From Candidatus Thiodiazotropha sp. CDECU1 (GTDB lineage Bacteria > Pseudomonadota > Gammaproteobacteria > Chromatiales > Chromatiaceae), in the NCBI RefSeq assembly GCF_963455295.1, contig NZ_OY734020.1:496001-560000 (forward strand): a DNA stretch of 64,000 nucleotides. The letters run 5' to 3'. Shown here in pieces: positions 1,634 to 43,665 of the stretch (positions within the stretch are counted from its first letter, which is position 1; the number at the start of each line of letters is the position of its first letter). The notes beneath the pieces are model-generated. The model searched no databases and was not told the origin of the DNA. It saw only the letters and a program-made list of their open reading frames with translations. A program made the translations under genes and the position numbers.

Positions 1634-3073
1634 TCAGGCGCCTGTGAAATAGTGGCTGTTCACTGCCATATGGGAAAAGATACTGGCGATGTAGCCCAGG
1701 GCAATCGCAGGTGTCCATCGCAAATGGCTGAAAAAGGTATACTTCCCTCGCGCCTGTCCCATAAGGGCAACACCTGCGGCAGAGCCGATTGATAGCAATG
1801 AACCGCCGACACCTGCGGTCAGGGTGACAAGCAGCCATTGACCCATAGACATGTCAGGATTCATGGTGAGGACCGCGAACATAACCGGGATGTTATCGAC
1901 AATGGCGGAGAGAACGCCGATAGCCACATTGGCGCTGGTGGCGCCCCATCCTGTGTACATCAGCTCTGATGCCATGCTCAGATAGCCCAGAAAACCCAGG
2001 CCACCCACACAAAGCACAACCCCGTAGAAGAAGAGCAGGGTGTCCCACTCGGCCCGGGCAACGGGATTGAACACATCGAATGCGACAGGCGAACCCATTT
2101 CGCCATCATGTTCAACATTGTCGGGTTTGCCGTGATGGTCCCTACCTGCGGTCTTCTTCAGGTAAAAACCCATCAGTTGTAAATATCCAAGTCCGGTCAG
2201 CATGCCGATGACCGGTGGCATATGAAGGAAATTGTGGAATGAGACTGCAGTGGCAATGGTGGCGATAAACAGAGCGACGATCCGCTTTGCACCTCGCTGC
2301 ATCACTATCTTTTCACCGGATGCGGCAGGTTTGATGTCGGGTATGGCGAAATGCATGATGGCGGCGGGGACCAGAAAATTTACAACCGCAGGAGTGAACA
2401 GGCTGAAAAAAGTACCGAATTCCACAATGCCTTTTTGCCAGACCATCAACGTGGTTATATCGCCAAAGGGAGAAAAGGCCCCACCTGCGTTTGCACCGAC
2501 CACGATATTGATACAGGCCAGGTTGATGAACTTCCGGTTATCGCCACCGACTGACATAACCACCGCACACATCAGCAGGGCGGTTGTGAGGTTGTCGGCG
2601 ATCGGGGAGATGAAAAAAGCCAGGATTCCGGTAATCCAGAACAGTGCGCGAAAGCCAAAACCGCTACGTACCAGCCAGGCGCGAAGGGCATCGAATATAC
2701 GCCGTTCCTGCATGGTGTTGATATAGGTCATCGCCACTAACAGGAAGAGCATCAACTCCGCATACTCCAAAAGATTGTGGCGTACCGCTTCGCCAGCGGC
2801 AGTGGGCATGTCATGGCTTGCATAGACCCAGGCGATGCATCCCCAGATCAGACCTGCACCGATAATGACTGGTTTGGATTTACGCAGGTGAGTGTACTCC
2901 TCGGCCATTACCAGCAGGTAGGCGAGGAGAAATATGCCAATGGAGAGAAAGCCCACCCAGCTTTCGGTCAGGTCCAATGGGTGAGCTTCCGCTTCTACCG
3001 CCATAGCTGCTGCCGGCAGGAGAGAAAAAAGAGACAGAAGGATAAGTTTTAATATCGAAGGTGAACCACTCAT
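1634..3073 (-). CDS. nhaD: NhaD-type Na+/H+ antiporter
   Basis: A 479-residue multi-spanning inner-membrane protein with an N-terminal signal-like segment and about a dozen hydrophobic helices. Conserved NhaD stretches are present: PIADNLTTALLM, GGAFSPFGDITTLMVW, SAIVDNIPVMFAVL and GSLLSIGSAAGVALMG, which carry the polar intramembrane residues expected for Na+/H+ exchange. It is the last gene of a leftward operon, starting 13 bp after the SLC13 carrier gene. The setting suggests it exports the Na+ that enters with a co-transported substrate. That coupling is inference; family membership is well supported. Confidence 0.9.
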   Translation of the reverse strand: MSGSPSILKLILLSLFSLLPAAAMAVEAEAHPLDLTESWVGFLSIGIFLLAYLLVMAEEYTHLRKSKPVIIGAGLIWGCIAWVYASHDMPTAAGEAVRHNLLEYAELMLFLLVAMTYINTMQERRIFDALRAWLVRSGFGFRALFWITGILAFFISPIADNLTTALLMCAVVMSVGGDNRKFINLACINIVVGANAGGAFSPFGDITTLMVWQKGIVEFGTFFSLFTPAVVNFLVPAAIMHFAIPDIKPAASGEKIVMQRGAKRIVALFIATIATAVSFHNFLHMPPVIGMLTGLGYLQLMGFYLKKTAGRDHHGKPDNVEHDGEMGSPVAFDVFNPVARAEWDTLLFFYGVVLCVGGLGFLGYLSMASELMYTGWGATSANVAIGVLSAIVDNIPVMFAVLTMNPDMSMGQWLLVTLTAGVGGSLLSIGSAAGVALMGQARGKYTFFSHLRWTPAIALGYIASIFSHMAVNSHYFTGA

Positions 3074-5153: not shown

Positions 5154-5708
5154 TCAGGCTGCTGATTGCTTGGAAGGGCGTGGGGATGAACGATCTCCTA
5201 TGAGCACCAGCGGTACATCTATGTGCCCACTATGCCCGGGTATCATCTTTTCGACGATTCGCTTGGCTGCAGCGTCATCCGGCATCGCCACGATGGAAAC
5301 GATTGAAGGTTGGTTGTGAATGTAGTTGAGGATGTCACCCACAGGTTCAGCACTTAGCTGGATGGTCTGGCAGTAGAGACCGGTGGACCTGATCCGATCC
5401 TCCAATGCTGTGATCTCTGTTTTATCATCTGCGGAATGAATGAGCAGATCGATTCTTGCCCCTAGCCGTAAACAGGTGTCAATGGCGTAATCGAGGGGTG
5501 CTCCGCGACCTCTGCCGTCACTGATAAATGCGATTCGGTCGGAAGCGGGCTTTGAGACCATCTTCAGGGCGGGTGAGGAACCGGCATCATTCGGTTTTGC
5601 GGTGATACCGAGCGCCTTCATTTTGTCTCGTGTGGATAAAAACTCCCCCGCATCCTGGTATGCCAGGCTGGTCAACATGCGTTTCAGGTCATCGCTTAAT
5701 TTGGTCAT
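5154..5708 (-). CDS. Universal-stress-protein-like protein, first gene of Na+ transport operon
   Basis: A 184-residue soluble protein. Residues ~1-45 are a charged helical extension. From ~55 to ~175 the alternating beta/alpha pattern (RIAFISDGRG, RIDLLIHS, VSIVAMPDD, VPLVLIGD) resembles a UspA fold, although the classical ATP-binding G-x2-G-x9-GS is not obvious. The ATG at 5708 is preferred over the upstream TTG at 5723 because it leaves a short leader behind the sigma-54 promoter at 5746-5760. Adjacent SLC13 and nhaD genes suggest a cytosolic regulator or stress sensor for the transporters. This is inference; the family call is moderate. Confidence 0.65.
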   Translation of the reverse strand: MTKLSDDLKRMLTSLAYQDAGEFLSTRDKMKALGITAKPNDAGSSPALKMVSKPASDRIAFISDGRGRGAPLDYAIDTCLRLGARIDLLIHSADDKTEITALEDRIRSTGLYCQTIQLSAEPVGDILNYIHNQPSIVSIVAMPDDAAAKRIVEKMIPGHSGHIDVPLVLIGDRSSPRPSKQSAA

Positions 5709-5745
5709 GGGTACAGATTCCAAGTATTCGTTGTCACAGGTAATC

Positions 5746-5760
5746 GCAATAGGTGTGCCA
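5746..5760 (-). promoter_or_regulatory. Sigma-54 (-24/-12) promoter of the USP-SLC13-nhaD operon
   Basis: On the minus strand the sequence reads TGGCAC-ACCTA-TTGC, a full match to the core TGGCAC-N5-TTGC of RpoN promoters, preceded by the favoured TT. The -12 GC falls near 5746-5747, so transcription should start near 5735 and give a leader of roughly 27 nt before the ATG at 5708. The divergently encoded response regulator is of the sigma-54-activating class, which makes it the obvious activator. Confidence 0.8.
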
Positions 5761-5821
5761 ATTTATAAGGCATGTAACTTATTGATAGTTGGTTGGTTAT
5801 TATTGCTTTAATGGAGGGGTG

Positions 5822-5838
5822 TGTTGCAAAATGCAATG
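5822..5838. promoter_or_regulatory. Candidate enhancer site 1 (TGTTGCA-N3-TGCAATG)
   Basis: The site reads TGTTGCAAAATGCAATG, with a perfect inner inverted repeat TTGCA-AAA-TGCAA at 5824-5836. It is 17 bp long, like the perfect palindrome at 5913-5929, and matches it at most positions. It sits roughly 85-105 bp upstream of the predicted sigma-54 start, a normal distance for an NtrC-class upstream activating sequence. Confidence 0.6.
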
Positions 5839-5912
5839 CTTATCTGCAGGGTTTGAGGCAATTTCATGGTAAATGCCGGGGGCGTGCGGGAATCAATGCG
5901 ATTTGCTATAGT

Positions 5913-5929
5913 TGTTTCATTTTGAAACA
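5913..5929. promoter_or_regulatory. Candidate enhancer/operator site 2 (TGTTTCA-N3-TGAAACA)
   Basis: A perfect 7-3-7 inverted repeat, TGTTTCATTTTGAAACA. It lies 24 bp upstream of the histidine kinase ATG and about 180 bp upstream of the predicted start of the divergent operon, so it could serve both autoregulation and activation. A weaker relative, TATTGCGATTTGTAATA, follows at 5933-5949. Confidence 0.65.
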
Positions 5930-5952
5930 GTGTATTGCGATTTGTAATAGCG

Positions 5953-7446
5953 ATGACTTTTGATCTCTCCAGTTTGCAGGGCAAGATCACCACTGTGTAT
6001 ATCGCCCTGGTTCTCGGCACCCTGGTGCTTGCGGTGATCGCCTTTCTCGATCTGTTGTTTCTGCAGCGCCAGATCAGGGAGGGTGAGGTGGTATCGGATC
6101 TGCGGAATGCTGTTTCTGAGATGCGCAGAGAGGAGAAAAACCTCTTCCTCTATGCAGACAGGCAGGCGCGCTTGAGGGCAGATGAATATGCCAAGTCATC
6201 CTTGCAGGTTGTGCGCGCCTATGAAGTATCATTGGCCGCGCTTATGCAGCAATCGGCCCCTTCTGACTTGATCGCAACTCTGCAGGCCTACCGCGGCAAG
6301 CTGGGTGATTGGGAGCAGACATCCCGCGTCGATCAACAGCAGATTGAAGACGATATCAGGACACTCGGACACCAGATCTACATCACCGTCGAGTTCCTGT
6401 CCAAGCAGGAACGCAGCATGCTCGAAGCCGCTGTGAAGGAGTCCCGATGGTTTTTACTTATATTCCTGCCCATCATCGGGCTTGCTATCTATATCGTTGG
6501 GCATCGAGCCAAACGTGTGGTTCTGCTGCCCCTGAAAAGATTGGAGTCATACTTGAAACCGATAGCCGATGGGCGTTTCAATCATCTCCAGCCACCGTCC
6601 GATGATCGTGAGTTCATCACATTTACCGATGCATTCAATGGCATGCTCAAGGAGTTGGAGATCCGTCAGAGGCGAATGCTGCAGAGCGAAAAATTGGCGT
6701 CACTGGGGATTCTGGCATCGGGTGTGGCGCATGAGTTGAATAATCCGCTGTCGAATATTTCCTCTTCCACGCAGTTGCTGATGGAGGAGTTTGAAGAAGC
6801 AGACGCCGACCCCGAGCAACTCCGCACCTGGTTGAAGCAGATCGACAGTGAGACTGAACGTGGCAAGAACATCGTTCGCACCATGCTCGATTTCGGCAGC
6901 CAAAAGGTATTTCAAAAGAACAGGATCAAACTGCTGGATCTGGTGAATGAAACCCAATCCCTGATTGGAAAGGCGCTGTTGCAACACTCAGCGAAGTTGA
7001 CTGTGAATATTCCGGATGAGCTGGTCCTGGTGGTGGATAAACAGCGTATTCAACAGATGTTTATCAACCTGATACAGAATGCGCTGCATGCTGCAGGTAA
7101 GGGTGTGCATGTGAAGATCAGTGCCATACAGCGCGATAATGGCGGCTCCATGATACCCGAGGGGGCTGAGGTGGCGGGGAGTCTTACATGTGTTTCCGAT
7201 CACGCTGGTCCCTTTGTCGAGATATTGGTTGTCGACGATGGGCCTGGCATCCCGCAAGAGACCCTGCCAAAGGTATTCGATCCCTTTTTTACAACCAGCG
7301 AACCCGGGAAGGGTGTCGGACTGGGTATGTTCATCATTCAGGAGATAGTGCGGGAACATGACGGCTGCCTGGCTATCGCTTCCCGTGCCGGGGAAGGGAC
7401 CAAGGTAATCGTGCTGTTCCCCGGTGAGGAGCAGGCAAATGACTGA
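5953..7446 (+). CDS. Membrane sensor histidine kinase
   Basis: A 497-residue kinase: TM1 at ~12-36, a mainly helical periplasmic domain at ~37-165, TM2 at ~167-186, a HAMP linker, HisKA with the phospho-accepting His260 in VAHELNNPLSN, then an HATPase domain with an N box (NLIQNALHA), a G1 box (DDGPGI) and a G2 box (GKGVGLGM). The kinase class resembles NtrB/DctB/AtoS-type partners of sigma-54 regulators. The ATG at 5953 is chosen; a TTG at 5935 is in frame but overlaps the operator region. It overlaps the response regulator by 8 bp, so the two are translationally coupled. The signal sensed is unknown; the divergent transport operon suggests an ion or small anion. Confidence 0.88.
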   Translation: MTFDLSSLQGKITTVYIALVLGTLVLAVIAFLDLLFLQRQIREGEVVSDLRNAVSEMRREEKNLFLYADRQARLRADEYAKSSLQVVRAYEVSLAALMQQSAPSDLIATLQAYRGKLGDWEQTSRVDQQQIEDDIRTLGHQIYITVEFLSKQERSMLEAAVKESRWFLLIFLPIIGLAIYIVGHRAKRVVLLPLKRLESYLKPIADGRFNHLQPPSDDREFITFTDAFNGMLKELEIRQRRMLQSEKLASLGILASGVAHELNNPLSNISSSTQLLMEEFEEADADPEQLRTWLKQIDSETERGKNIVRTMLDFGSQKVFQKNRIKLLDLVNETQSLIGKALLQHSAKLTVNIPDELVLVVDKQRIQQMFINLIQNALHAAGKGVHVKISAIQRDNGGSMIPEGAEVAGSLTCVSDHAGPFVEILVVDDGPGIPQETLPKVFDPFFTTSEPGKGVGLGMFIIQEIVREHDGCLAIASRAGEGTKVIVLFPGEEQAND

Positions 7447-8821
7447 GGCATTAACGGAGAAGGCCAGCATCCTCATAGTCGATGACGAGGAGACCGCTGT
7501 TGAAAATCTGGCCCATGTATGCCGCAAGCAGGGCTATGAGGTAACCACGCGCACCAGCGGCGCGGGGGCCGTCGACGCCCTGGAGAAGGATCGTTTCGAT
7601 CTGGTGCTTACCGATCTGCAGATGGAAAAGGTCGATGGTATGGCTGTGCTTAAACGCGCCAAAGAGCTGGACCCGGAGGTTGCCGTGGTGTTGATAACAG
7701 GCTATGCCACCGTAGACTCCGCCGTGGCCGCCATGAAGGCGGGAGCGTTTCACTATATTGCCAAACCCTTTCGCCTGGATGAGGTGCGCGAGGTTGTTCG
7801 CAACGCCCTGGAGCTGGTCAGTTTGAAAAGGGAGAACCGGCAGTTGAAGGAGCAACTCAACAGTAACCATCCCGAGCCGTCCATCATCACCCAGAATGCC
7901 ATCATGCAGCGCCTGATGGAGATGGCGAGACAGGTTGCGCCAAGCGACACCAATATCCTGATTACCGGAGAGAGCGGCACAGGCAAGGAGCTGTTGGCCC
8001 GATACATACATAACCACAGTGGCCGCGACAAGGATACCTTCATGGCCGTCAACTGCGGCGCGCTGCAGGAAGACCTGTTGGCCAACGAACTCTTCGGTCA
8101 TGAGAAGGGGGCCTATACCGGCGCCAATGAAGCGAAGCAGGGGCTGATCGAGGCGGCCCATGGCGGCACGCTGTTTCTCGATGAAATTGCGGAAATGTCC
8201 CTCTCGATGCAGGTCAAGCTGTTGCGTGTGATTCAGGAACGTGAGGTACAGCGCCTGGGCTCGACCAGTGCACGCGCGGTGGATATCCACCTGATAACCG
8301 CCACCCATCGCGACCTGCAAAAAGAGGTTGCCGCGGGCCGCTTTCGCCAGGATCTCTACTACCGCCTCGACGTAGTGGAACTGCACCTGCCGCCTTTGGC
8401 GGAACGCAAGGACGACATTCCTCTGCTCGCCTTCTACTTTATGCGCAAGCATGCGGCCAGAATAGGACGCATGACGGATGATATAGACCCCGAGGCATTG
8501 GCGGTGCTGAACGATTACGATTATCCGGGGAACATCCGTGAACTGGAGAACATCATCGAACGAGCGGTCACCCTCGCCAATGATCGTTTACTGACAACCG
8601 CCAATTTCCCCCCGGCCCTGGTGGATAGAGCGATCCATGTGGTGCGGGAAGAATCGGGGCGCCTGCCCACCCTGGCCGAACGGGAGGTAGACTATATCAA
8701 GTATGTACTCGAACGCAGTGGCCAGAATCGCACCCAGGCGGCAAAGGCGCTAGGCATCGATCGTGTTTCCTTGTGGCGCAAACTGAAGAAGTATGGCATG
8801 GAAGGGGAACAACAGAATTGA
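7439..8821 (+). CDS. Sigma-54-dependent response regulator (NtrC class)
   Basis: A 460-residue three-domain regulator. The receiver domain (~8-125) has phospho-acceptor Asp59 in LTDLQME. The AAA+ sigma-54 activation domain (~145-375) has Walker A GESGTGKE at 177-184 and GAYTGA in place of the usual GAFTGA loop. A Fis-type helix-turn-helix (RTQAAKALGIDRVSLWRKL) ends the protein. The start at 7439 is backed by GAGGAG about 8 bp upstream and overlaps the kinase stop. The regulator presumably binds the palindromes at 5822 and 5913 and activates the -24/-12 promoter of the divergent operon (inference). Confidence 0.92.
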   Translation: MTEALTEKASILIVDDEETAVENLAHVCRKQGYEVTTRTSGAGAVDALEKDRFDLVLTDLQMEKVDGMAVLKRAKELDPEVAVVLITGYATVDSAVAAMKAGAFHYIAKPFRLDEVREVVRNALELVSLKRENRQLKEQLNSNHPEPSIITQNAIMQRLMEMARQVAPSDTNILITGESGTGKELLARYIHNHSGRDKDTFMAVNCGALQEDLLANELFGHEKGAYTGANEAKQGLIEAAHGGTLFLDEIAEMSLSMQVKLLRVIQEREVQRLGSTSARAVDIHLITATHRDLQKEVAAGRFRQDLYYRLDVVELHLPPLAERKDDIPLLAFYFMRKHAARIGRMTDDIDPEALAVLNDYDYPGNIRELENIIERAVTLANDRLLTTANFPPALVDRAIHVVREESGRLPTLAEREVDYIKYVLERSGQNRTQAAKALGIDRVSLWRKLKKYGMEGEQQN

Positions 8822-18440: not shown

Positions 18441-18887
18441 TCAGTGCGCATCATTGTTGTCTGCAGGCTTGTTTGCCATGAACTCGTCGAACTCTTCCTG
18501 GTCTTTACGCCGTTTCGCATCGAAGCGAAATGAACGGAATGCCTCCGTCCGCTTCTTGATCTCCTCCTTGATCTCGCGGATGCGATCGTACTGTGTCTGC
18601 TGATACTCGTTGAATACGATGTTTTCACTATCCTTGTATGTTCCCGCATTGTTTTTTCGGAACATCTGATTCCACTTGTCGCGCACCCAACCGGGAAGCT
18701 CCTGGATTGGGTGACCCAGGATTGTCCACAACAGGACTATAAAGCCCAATGGCGGAAATAGGATGAATCCCAACACCATTGCTACGATATTCGCACCGCT
18801 CCAGTGACCGCGCCCGCACGACCCCATATGGCCATTGAAACAGTACCCGCGTGACCTGTCTGCTGCTGAATAGTCAGTTGACGACAT
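18441..18887 (-). CDS. DUF2852-family membrane protein
   Basis: A 148-residue protein with one hydrophobic hairpin at ~32-57 (ANIVAMVLGFILFPPLGFIV) and a charged, probably coiled-coil C-terminal half (IREIKEEIKKRTEAFRSFRFD). This arrangement fits DUF2852, whose function is unknown. The N-terminus has several Cys and Gly residues (GYCFNGHMGSCGRGHW). It is divergent from a TetR regulator, with a palindromic candidate operator (18924-18941) between them, so it is a plausible target of that regulator. Confidence 0.6.
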   Translation of the reverse strand: MSSTDYSAADRSRGYCFNGHMGSCGRGHWSGANIVAMVLGFILFPPLGFIVLLWTILGHPIQELPGWVRDKWNQMFRKNNAGTYKDSENIVFNEYQQTQYDRIREIKEEIKKRTEAFRSFRFDAKRRKDQEEFDEFMANKPADNNDAH

Positions 18888-41880: not shown

Positions 41881-43665
41881 ATGGAAAACAGTGCCAAGAC
41901 CCTAGCGGGGTTTCCATCCCACCCCCTGGATGGCCTGCAGCTCACCCGTCTGCAGCAGGCGGTCGAGGGGTTGAACAGCCAGCAACTGAATTGGGCAAGC
42001 GGCTATCTTGCGGGACTGGGTGCGGTGCAACCCTCAGTGAGCAAGGCGGCCAATGAGGCCTCAGGCGTGACCATCCTGTATGCCACCCAGGGTGGCAATG
42101 CCCGCAGCGTGGCGGAGACCCTGGCTGAAAACGCCACGGCCAGGGGGCTTGCCCCACGCCTGGTCTCTGCCGACAGTTACCGCCCCAGGGAGCTTGTCAG
42201 GGAGCGACTGCTGCTGGTGGTGATCAGTACCCAGGGTGAAGGGGAGCCCCCGGAGAGCGCACACGAACTGTTCAAATATCTCCAGGGCAAGCGGGCGCCT
42301 CGACTGGAGCAGCTTAAATACGCCATCTTCGGCCTGGGGGATTCCAGTTACGAGCAGTTCTGCCAGGCGTCCAGGGAACTGGATGAGTTGCTAAACGGGC
42401 AGGGTGCCCAGGCGCTGCTCGAACGTGTCGATGCGGATGTGGATTTCCAGCAATCCTCTTCGAGCTGGCAGGGTGAGATCCTGCAGACCCTGGAAAAACT
42501 GCAGCCGTCGGATCAGGCAACCATCATTCCCCTGCAGCGGGGGCCGGCGACAGTCAGGCATGATCGCAACAACCCGTTTCAGGCCGAGCTGTTGGAACGT
42601 CGCCGTATCACCACCAGCGATGCGGTGTGCAATGTGCAGCATCTAACCCTGGAGATCGATCCGCAAGTGATCAGCTACCGGCCGGGGGATGCTCTGGGAC
42701 TCTTCTTCAGGAACGATCCAGCCCTGGTCGACGAGATTCTCTCCCTGACAAGGCTGGCAGCCGAGACGCCGGTCGGCCTCAATGGCGAGAGTCTGACCCT
42801 GGCCGAGGCCCTGAGAGAACGTCTGGAGCTGACCCAGCTCCATCCCAATGTGGTCAAGGCCTGGGCGGCGCTCGATGCTGCCGCGGATCTAACTACCCTG
42901 AGCCAAGACAACGAACAGTTACGGGCCTTTGTCAGCGACCGCCAATTCATCGATCTGCCACAGCAGCATCCCGCCGAGGTGGATGCCCAGGGGTTGGTTG
43001 AGCTGCTGCATACCCAACAGCCCCGGCTCTACTCCATCGCCTCCAGCCAGGCAGCCTACGCAGACGAGATCCATCTGACTGTCGCCGCTCTGCACTACAG
43101 GGGCCATGGACGGGACTATCTGGGTGGTGCCTCCGGTTATCTGACCCAGCGTATCGCCGAGGGCGATCCTTTGGCTGCCTATGTGGTGGAGAACCCGTGT
43201 TTCAAGCTGCCGCAAGGGGCAGATACACCGATCATCATGGTCGGTGCTGGGACGGGTATCGCGCCCTATCGCGCCTTCCTGCAGGAGCGCGAGGCCTCAG
43301 GTGCTGCCGGCGAGAACTGGTTGGTGTTCGGCAATCGCCATTTTCACCGGGACTTCCTCTATCAGACCGACTGGCTCAGCTACCGCAGGGCCGGTCTACT
43401 GGATCGTATCAGCCTCGCCTTCTCCCGGGACGGGGGTGAGCGCAGCTATGTACAGGCCAGGCTCTACGAAGAGCGGGCGGAACTCTATCGCTGGCTACAG
43501 GAGGGCGCCCACCTCTATATCTGTGGCGGGGTGGAGATGGCGCATGGGGTGCATCAATCCCTGTTGGCCGTGGCCCAGGATCAGGGTGGCCTGAAAGAGG
43601 AGGCCGCCGTCGAATATATCGAGTCCCTGCGTCAGCAGGGGCGTTACCAGCGGGACGTCTACTGA
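41881..43665 (+). CDS. cysJ: Sulfite reductase [NADPH] flavoprotein alpha subunit
   Basis: A 594-residue diflavin reductase: a FMN flavodoxin domain at ~60-200 (TILYATQGGNARSVAETLAE), an FAD/connecting domain at ~225-440 (RLYSIASSQ as the FAD-binding RxYS) and an NADPH domain at ~450-594 (GAGTGIAPYRAFLQERE, ending RYQRDVY). It passes electrons from NADPH to the CysI haemoprotein. CTGGAG sits 9 bp before the ATG. Its stop overlaps the cysI start by one base. Confidence 0.95.
   Translation: MENSAKTLAGFPSHPLDGLQLTRLQQAVEGLNSQQLNWASGYLAGLGAVQPSVSKAANEASGVTILYATQGGNARSVAETLAENATARGLAPRLVSADSYRPRELVRERLLLVVISTQGEGEPPESAHELFKYLQGKRAPRLEQLKYAIFGLGDSSYEQFCQASRELDELLNGQGAQALLERVDADVDFQQSSSSWQGEILQTLEKLQPSDQATIIPLQRGPATVRHDRNNPFQAELLERRRITTSDAVCNVQHLTLEIDPQVISYRPGDALGLFFRNDPALVDEILSLTRLAAETPVGLNGESLTLAEALRERLELTQLHPNVVKAWAALDAAADLTTLSQDNEQLRAFVSDRQFIDLPQQHPAEVDAQGLVELLHTQQPRLYSIASSQAAYADEIHLTVAALHYRGHGRDYLGGASGYLTQRIAEGDPLAAYVVENPCFKLPQGADTPIIMVGAGTGIAPYRAFLQEREASGAAGENWLVFGNRHFHRDFLYQTDWLSYRRAGLLDRISLAFSRDGGERSYVQARLYEERAELYRWLQEGAHLYICGGVEMAHGVHQSLLAVAQDQGGLKEEAAVEYIESLRQQGRYQRDVY

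Follow-up and report, generated by a model that had tools for sequence, protein, structure and literature searches.

A predicted sigma-54-dependent two-component switch for exchangeable anion carriers in Candidatus Thiodiazotropha and related loci

Comparison with described systems

The closest described system that we found is TspS/TspR of Acidithiobacillus caldus, an NtrC-type sigma-54 system that is encoded beside its target in the sox-II cluster of a sulfur-oxidizing autotroph and uses a palindromic upstream activating sequence (UAS) (PMC6335251, accessible part of the text). Corresponding features are found in a stretch of 64,000 nucleotides from Candidatus Thiodiazotropha sp. CDECU1 (hereafter the window; G000:C1:496001-560000, from the 4.46-Mb single-contig genome G000). 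In this window, a sensor histidine kinase (HK) and an NtrC-type response regulator are encoded on the plus strand, divergently from a minus-strand operon for a universal stress protein (USP)-like protein, an SLC13-type carrier with a TrkA_C domain and the Na+/H+ antiporter NhaD; the gap between the two units extends from 5709 to 5952. With high confidence, the architecture of this locus is that of a dedicated NtrC-type sigma-54 two-component switch as far as its sequence allows such a prediction, and related loci place the same switch in front of different predicted anion carriers.

The locus is not a member of the TspS/TspR system, from which it differs in operator, sensor, and target. The UAS of TspR is TGTCCCAAATGGGACA, whereas the predicted operator here is TGTTGCA-N3-TGCAACA, and TspS/TspR controls sox genes instead of anion carriers (accessible part of PMC6335251). 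TspS carries an sCache_3_2 domain (accessible part of PMC12194929) in place of the NarQ-like helical sensor described below. AtoC, ZraR and other NtrC-class regulators share the domain order and the GAFTGA-type loop with our regulator, but it scores far under the curated cut-offs of its two best NCBIfam models (AtoC, 449.5 of 714; ZraR, 415 of 760) and is thus no equivalog of either. The best models of the kinase are likewise far under their cut-offs (VirA-like, 155 of 647; AtoS, 150.4 of 646). Sequence features of the sigma-54 NtrC-type class are present: a receiver, an AAA+ domain with a GAFTGA-type loop, a Fis-type helix-turn-helix (HTH) and an adjoining kinase gene. The initial annotation had already named the GAYTGA loop, which is read in the translation, and a regulator divergent from the operon; the regulator is divergent, but the direct neighbor of the operon is the kinase gene and the regulator gene comes second. 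In all five genomes tested, a single rpoN gene is present.

On the target side, the inorganic-carbon transporters SulP, SbtA, and DAC of chemolithoautotrophs resemble the carriers described here, with SulP at carboxysome loci and a stated sodium dependence (PMC12628692; PMC10880623, accessible parts). In these parts, the terms "two-component" and "sigma" occur in neither paper, and "SLC13" does not occur in PMC10880623. TeaD, the USP of the TeaABC carrier, is likewise a USP-fold protein encoded with a carrier and is among the structural matches of our USP-like protein (3hgm), but it belongs to another carrier class and is only 15% identical in the structural match. A term search of a study on the Desulfovibrio sigma-54 regulome (PMC4641369) gave no match for bicarbonate, sulfite, sulfate permease, TauE, TGTTGC, or universal stress, and no parallel for BicA paired with an antiporter was found in the open-access literature. 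Neither did we find a description of this switch in the open-access literature searched, most subscription papers being outside the search. It is therefore a switch of a known kind that is apparently undescribed, in agreement with the initial annotation.

Conservation of promoter, operator, and regulator

Taken alone, the promoter and palindrome sequences are modest evidence, and their conservation is the decisive test. The exact motif TGGCAC-N5-TTGC, which had been annotated on the minus strand in front of the operon, is read there (5760-5746) and occurs only once in the whole window. Since sequences with one mismatch are at chance level (seven in the window versus 5.84 expected), the promoter hexamers alone prove nothing. 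The palindrome occurs three times with up to two mismatches (0.76 expected; three were reached in 4 of 100 shuffles), and the third palindrome-like match, with two mismatches, lies at 43198-43214. Assuming a transcription start about 12 nt beyond the C of the -12 element, i.e. at 5734, the two annotated palindromes (sites A and B; Table 1) are centered where the initial annotation had placed them, about 95 and 185 bp upstream. A consensus site for IHF, a weaker palindrome (site C) and a -10-like element that might allow autoregulation had been overlooked.

Across G000, the pattern TGTTKC-N4-TGMAAY matches eight times. Three of these matches are sites A and B (B scored on both strands), and the remaining five are all inside open reading frames (ORFs), two of them NtrC-type genes, so that the switch looks dedicated. 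Of six extra palindromes in G000, G009, and G019, five are within ORFs; the sixth lies beyond the 3' end of an SLC13 paralogue in G009, with no promoter element (at most one mismatch) in the stretch examined.

Within the genus, an orthologous regulator is encoded in four of the 21 genomes (79-100% identity), while the best matches in the others are at the paralogue level of about 40%. Among 39 relatives searched, the USP-like protein was matched in those same four genomes only. All four loci have the genes for the USP-like protein and the SLC13 carrier divergent from kinase and regulator, and all four keep the -24/-12 element (GG-N10-GC) and both palindromes A and B. Sites A, B, and C and the -24/-12 element form conserved blocks amid diverged surroundings (the USP-like proteins are 54-60% identical), and the extended -10-like motif precedes site B in the genus alignment. 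Of the SLC13-type loci found, 12 were aligned: GG-N10-GC is kept in 11, L117 having lost the promoter and retained the enhancer, and TG-N-TA-N3-T is kept, as judged by eye, in ten (not in L116 and L117). In G009, the operon lacks nhaD (on a 17.7-kb contig), and in G003 nhaD is separated by a 536-aa ORF. The kinase frame of G009 is broken near its start (L057, 8367-8507), which is either real or an assembly error.

For a wider survey, the kinase-sensor alignment was compared with genome contigs, yielding 378 stretches from 266 relatives; the 80 best of these relatives served as a sample. The 98 loci were reduced to 89 by removing two at contig edges and seven duplicates and were collapsed at 80% HK-sensor identity into 70 representatives, 51 non-Nitrospirae and 19 Nitrospirae. 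The 25 loci counted as Nitrospirae were identified by their record titles, one of them presumably belonging to this group. Among the best 80 of 266, the relatives belong to Proteobacteria and Nitrospirae, and the nearest named ones live in symbiosis with the clam Ctena orbiculata (kinase sensor 98% identical in L110 and 72% in L111), Candidatus Thiodiazotropha records being more distant. The titles of this sample further name lucinid and tubeworm symbionts, Sedimenticola, Thiogranum, Thiohalomonas, Thiobacillus, Sulfuricella, Sulfuritalea, Tepidiphilus, Hydrogenophilus, Magnetococcales, and Nitrospirae. When 369 genomes of the class were searched with profiles, 12 had a match to the USP-like protein and 17 to the kinase sensor.

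Of 96 loci whose 420 bp ahead of the kinase gene were scanned, 55 contain a -24/-12 element with at most one mismatch (1.05 expected from dinucleotide shuffles, related loci being uncollapsed), 74 contain a palindrome with at most two mismatches (0.9 expected), and 41 contain two or more palindromes (0.0 expected). After collapsing, a composite of a -24/-12 element (at most two mismatches) with a palindrome (at most four) behind it is present in 42 of the 51 non-Nitrospirae representatives, compared to 0.4 expected in first-order random sequences, which were also the basis for the IHF test. The homologous loci thus conserve what the initial annotation had proposed, and its layout of promoter, enhancers, and two-component system at one locus is strongly supported. 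Promoter-palindrome distances in these 42 representatives cluster at 74-76 bp (6), 83-87 bp (26), 97-101 bp (5), and 116-117 bp (5); the first two classes are one helical turn apart, and agreement with whole turns is poorer for the latter two. An exact match to the IHF consensus lies between promoter and palindrome in 20 of 61 loci (0.38 expected, related loci included) and a match with at most one mismatch in 46 (8.04 expected), 41 of which have it 14-19 bp from the promoter element; among the 42 representatives, the corresponding numbers are 14 and 31.

The regulators themselves share a recognition stretch, LGIDRVSLWRK, each position of which is at least 90% identical in 79 module regulators (we refer to the switch with its targets as the module). 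In 25 NtrC-type paralogues, an identity of 80% or more is reached only by the structural residues (L, G, and the second L), and the others range from 0 to 69%. Because this stretch is common to the module regulators and not to the paralogues, TGTTGCA-N3-TGCAACA is very probably the site of the module regulator. GAFTGA or GAYTGA is present in 77 of 82 aligned regulators, the other five having a partial motif or none.

A strict composite pattern matched 22 of the 369 class genomes, versus two for a reversed-pattern control. Six of its 23 sites are modules and 17 are others, and nine of 15 module genomes are missed, including G000, because one half-site is degenerate there. In G195, which gave no match to the kinase sensor, the composite pattern occurs at two places 11 kb apart (C11:7310-7412 and 18566-18669; L190 and L212). 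Both L150 (10926-15990) and L104 (364-2467) encode a second, related pair of kinase and regulator a few kilobases away from the module, with a SulP-looking gene between in L150.

Table 1. Genes and DNA elements of the locus, with positions in the window
Feature	Position	Strand	Remarks
NhaD Na+/H+ antiporter, last gene of operon	1634..3073	-	NF038006, 659.7 bits (above cut-off of 80)
SLC13/CitMHS-type carrier with inserted TrkA_C domain, 682 aa	3087..5135	-	PF03600 (E 4.4e-75), PF02080, PF00939
USP-like protein, 184 aa, first gene of target operon	5154..5708	-	weak structural match to Usp-fold proteins
Candidate sigma-54 -24/-12 element TGGCAC-ACCTA-TTGC (GG-N10-GC), TGGCACACCTATTGC	5746..5760	-	before USP-like/SLC13/nhaD operon
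IHF-consensus site TATCAATAAGTTA	5775..5787	-	between promoter and enhancer; exact match to consensus
Site A, candidate enhancer (UAS) TGTTGCAAAATGCAATG	5822..5838	.	two mismatches to TGTTKCA-N3-TGMAACA; center 5830, about -96, 84 bp from C of -12
Extended -10-like element TGCTATAGT, possible kinase-regulator promoter	5904..5912	+	predicted from sequence only
Site B, perfect palindrome TGTTTCATTTTGAAACA	5913..5929	.	center 5921, about -187; overlaps expected kinase start site
Site C, weaker palindrome TATTGCGATTTGTAATA	5933..5949	.	20 bp from B, just before kinase ATG
Sensor histidine kinase with NarQ-like helical sensor region, HisKA and HATPase_c domains	5953..7446	+	domain and structure matches
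Response regulator of NtrC type with receiver, AAA+ domain (GAYTGA loop), and Fis-type HTH	7439..8821	+	translation and domain matches

The IHF consensus used was WATCAANNNNTTR, which we take to be the accepted one. The operon genes are separated by 18 bp (USP-like/SLC13) and 13 bp (SLC13/nhaD). No Pfam or NCBIfam match was obtained for the USP-like protein, which is therefore not a member of the Usp family by sequence; a distant relative reaches 18 bits, compared to the Usp cut-off of 24. Its structural model (pLDDT 76.4) weakly matches Usp-fold proteins, including TeaD and the USP domain of KdpD. The top Foldseek match is a tandem USP (E 6e-4), with other Rossmann-like proteins scoring close. 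The kinase sensor is modeled as a helical bundle (pLDDT 83.9), and its top structural matches are the NarQ nitrate/nitrite sensors (Foldseek E 1e-3, TM about 0.5), with only 16% identity. R58, R59, E61, and N63 are invariant across 17 aligned kinase sensors. From this model, it can reasonably be inferred that the ligand is an oxyanion, which the R58/R59 pair may bind. A copy of SLC13 outside the module is present in 19 of the 21 genus genomes; in G000, this second copy (L059, 6957-9035; C1, around 3,987,000) is 80% identical and lies beside a LysR-looking gene.

Exchanged carriers and their possible substrate

A search for the palindrome in front of SLC13-nhaD operons of other genomes found it there, and also before SulP and TauE/SafE-type carriers. 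Labeled by the Pfam families of the reference proteins, the carriers of the 51 non-Nitrospirae representatives are SulP type A (17), SLC13 (14), SulP type B (7), TauE/SafE-type (4), and SLC13 plus SulP (1); in the remaining eight, none was found or the contig ended. In 17 of the 19 Nitrospirae representatives, a TauE/SafE-type carrier lies within 5.2 kb. Within the same distance, nhaD is present in nine of the 14 SLC13-type representatives, and none was found in those of the SulP and TauE/SafE types. Many loci have a USP-like gene between kinase and carrier, and L122 (1-3664) links both carrier types, with genes for a USP-like protein, SulP, and SLC13 in one string under the switch. The order of the annotated USP-SLC13-nhaD operon therefore holds in the window, but its first product has no family match as a USP, and nhaD is not constant among loci. 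Because nhaD is optional and the carrier varies, a Na+-specific switch, as the initial annotation had it, is too narrow a reading; the common denominator of the predicted targets is an anion carrier and not Na+.

In Sulfuricella and Sulfuritalea (L141, L150, L161, L173), SulP is followed by membrane subunits that look like NuoL/Hyf, possibly another exchanged target; Proton_antipo_M was identified by a family test in L161.

Gene content was compared between 15 module genomes (the strong kinase matches among the 17; the weakest two, G183 and G100, were left out, G183 ending up in the background sample) and other genomes of the class. RuBisCO, counted by PF00016 and thus including RuBisCO-like proteins, is encoded in 15/15 module genomes versus 31/59 in a background sample drawn systematically from the 354 other genomes (p 5.6e-4). 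The corresponding numbers are 14/15 versus 21/59 for soxB (p 6.5e-5), 13/15 versus 16/59 for dsrA (p 3.9e-5), and 9/15 versus 94/354, the full background, for aprA above cut-off (p 0.008). Since the module genomes carry both sets, gene presence does not separate carbon from sulfur.

RuBisCO lies about 5, 10, 9, and 20 kb from a SulP-type module in G149, G066, G207, and G068 (G066 and G207 belong to one genus). A hand estimate for a 3-Mb genome is that chance alone would place RuBisCO within 20 kb of about one module in 75. In G149, the SulP gene of the module is followed by genes for a bacterial microcompartment (BMC)-domain protein, a NUDIX protein, the RuBisCO large subunit, CsoS2, and CsoSCA and, further on, by a LysR-type gene that is nearest CbbR, though scoring under the CbbR cut-off, and by genes for DabA and a membrane protein similar to NuoL. 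Family tests identified CsoS2, CsoSCA, the BMC protein, and DabA, i.e. an alpha-carboxysome/DabA locus. Carboxysome- or DabA-like genes were also seen in G207 and G068 (by tblastn with G149 proteins) and in G066 (by eye). In L157, L159, L163, L177, L178, and L189, the kinase gene has CbbQ/CbbO-like genes at a distance of up to about 8 kb, and three of these loci also encode a relative of the BMC protein; the Q/O label rests on similarity to the gene pair that adjoins RuBisCO in G000, since the NCBIfam match was to GvpN below its threshold and Pfam recognized a VWA domain only. In L177 and L178, it is a TauE/SafE-type carrier that stands under the switch near the CbbQ/CbbO-like genes, an unusual setting if the carrier exported sulfite. 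Overall, the flanks of ten of the 98 loci contain a tested gene for carbon fixation or dissolved inorganic carbon (DIC), and one contains a tested sulfur gene (aprA, aprB, dsrA, or soxB), in a comparison that is uneven (12 carbon versus 4 sulfur references), includes a weak case (L135, 34% to the NuoL-like protein), and counts the near-duplicates L177 and L178. In Thiomicrospira pelophila, a SulP protein adjoining a carboxysome locus carries inorganic carbon, and the authors state a sodium need for SulP and Sbt (PMC12628692, accessible part). Gene position thus leans to carbon, while by p the sulfur genes lead.

Sulfur oxyanions had been our first reading, from the species list and the dsrA and soxB tallies, and lost first place when some modules proved to have RuBisCO, carboxysome, and DabA genes as neighbors. 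We now regard inorganic carbon, as bicarbonate, as the most likely substrate, which is only tentatively the best supported one (probability about 0.45): The module recurs in carbon-fixing sulfur bacteria, sometimes beside carbon-fixation genes, so that the switch may control inorganic-carbon uptake.

Several results weigh against this reading or its generality. By p, dsrA and soxB are at least as strongly associated with the module as RuBisCO. None of the SLC13-type loci has a tested carbon-fixation gene in its flanks (about 8 kb or less). The SulP carriers score higher against solved sulfate/SLC26 carriers (type A, 271.9 bits; type B, 281.3 and 244.6 bits) than against 6ki1, a shorter chain that we take to be BicA (84.3 and 122.3 bits, respectively). 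The composite of promoter and palindrome is missing from nine of the 51 representatives (G024, G340, G357, L117, L135, L149, L154, L158, and L161), and of the 25 Nitrospirae loci scanned, only L146 and L183 have both elements near the kinase gene. A sigma-54 mechanism is therefore not established in Nitrospirae, where L175, L181, and L182 have a candidate promoter-palindrome pair 2.7-3.1 kb from the kinase gene and several loci repeat the form of site C, TATTGC-N5-GCAATA, about 27 bp before it. By eye, G024 (L058), L135, and L149 show a promoter-like element and a palindrome GTTTC-N6-GAAAC with one extra central base.

Proposed mechanism, alternatives, and meaning

In the mechanism that we propose, the signal, probably an oxyanion or at least a small ligand, would reach the kinase outside the inner membrane, and the kinase would phosphorylate the regulator. 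The regulator would bind site A, about eight DNA turns upstream of the promoter, perhaps aided by sites B and C, with IHF bending the DNA between site A and the promoter, and its AAA+ domain would open the sigma-54 RNA polymerase at the -24/-12 element to switch on the operon. The SLC13 protein would act as a Na+-coupled carrier of an anion, most likely bicarbonate imported when scarce, and the antiporter would restore the Na+ gradient; that the USP-like partner gates the carrier is a guess. With sites B and C lying across the likely kinase promoter, negative autoregulation by the regulator is probable.

The position of B and C would also fit a different role, in which a repressor or some other protein would use the palindromes as its operators and the -24/-12 match would have no function, as one-mismatch matches are common by chance. 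The joint conservation of both elements, their clustered spacing, the IHF consensus between them, and the co-inheritance of an NtrC-type regulator in dozens of loci make this very improbable. If the switch served Na+ or pH homeostasis, with NhaD as its true target and the SLC13 carrier incidental, the frequent presence of nhaD in SLC13-type representatives would be explained. In L131 (4039-5535) and L176 (6110-7558), nhaD alone is indeed divergent from a module-type kinase gene, with palindromes present, but these two loci have no clear sigma-54 element, the operon of G009 lacks nhaD, and the other carrier types come without it; we consider this reading improbable.

A more serious alternative keeps the same switch but has a sulfur oxyanion as the substrate of the carriers, be it sulfate, sulfite, or thiosulfate, and as the signal of the kinase; the carriers might, for instance, export sulfate from sulfur oxidation. 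The enrichment of dsrA, soxB, and aprA is consistent with it, as are the sulfur-anion members that the SLC13, SulP, and TauE/SafE families all include by their family names, the sulfate carriers among the nearest solved relatives of SulP, and an aprA gene about 7.5 kb from the module in G332. However, a sulfur gene flanks one locus where carbon genes flank ten, with the uneven references noted above, and we hold this alternative possible but unlikely.

Bicarbonate being the preferred substrate, the loci suggest a broader and more speculative picture, which we would hold doubtful as a whole, somewhat more so than a sulfur oxyanion as the substrate. Carbon-fixing sulfur bacteria might have, in one widespread sigma-54 switch, the regulator that is missing for their uptake of inorganic carbon. 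This switch, in many cases together with the USP-like partner, would be constant and the carrier exchanged: SulP at carboxysome loci, SLC13 with NhaD in marine symbionts, and a TauE/SafE-type carrier in Thiobacillus and Nitrospirae, with the NarQ-like kinase as a bicarbonate sensor. The locus is a concrete candidate, with a defined predicted operator, promoter, and sensor and testable targets, and among the relatives Thiobacillus is a genus that presumably has cultured members. If the substrate is carbon, the SLC13 and TauE/SafE-type proteins would be new kinds of bicarbonate carriers, extending the CO2-concentrating toolkit by two families. Should a sulfur anion be carried instead, sulfur oxidizers would still have in this switch a regulator that is dedicated to an exchange step and conserved widely.

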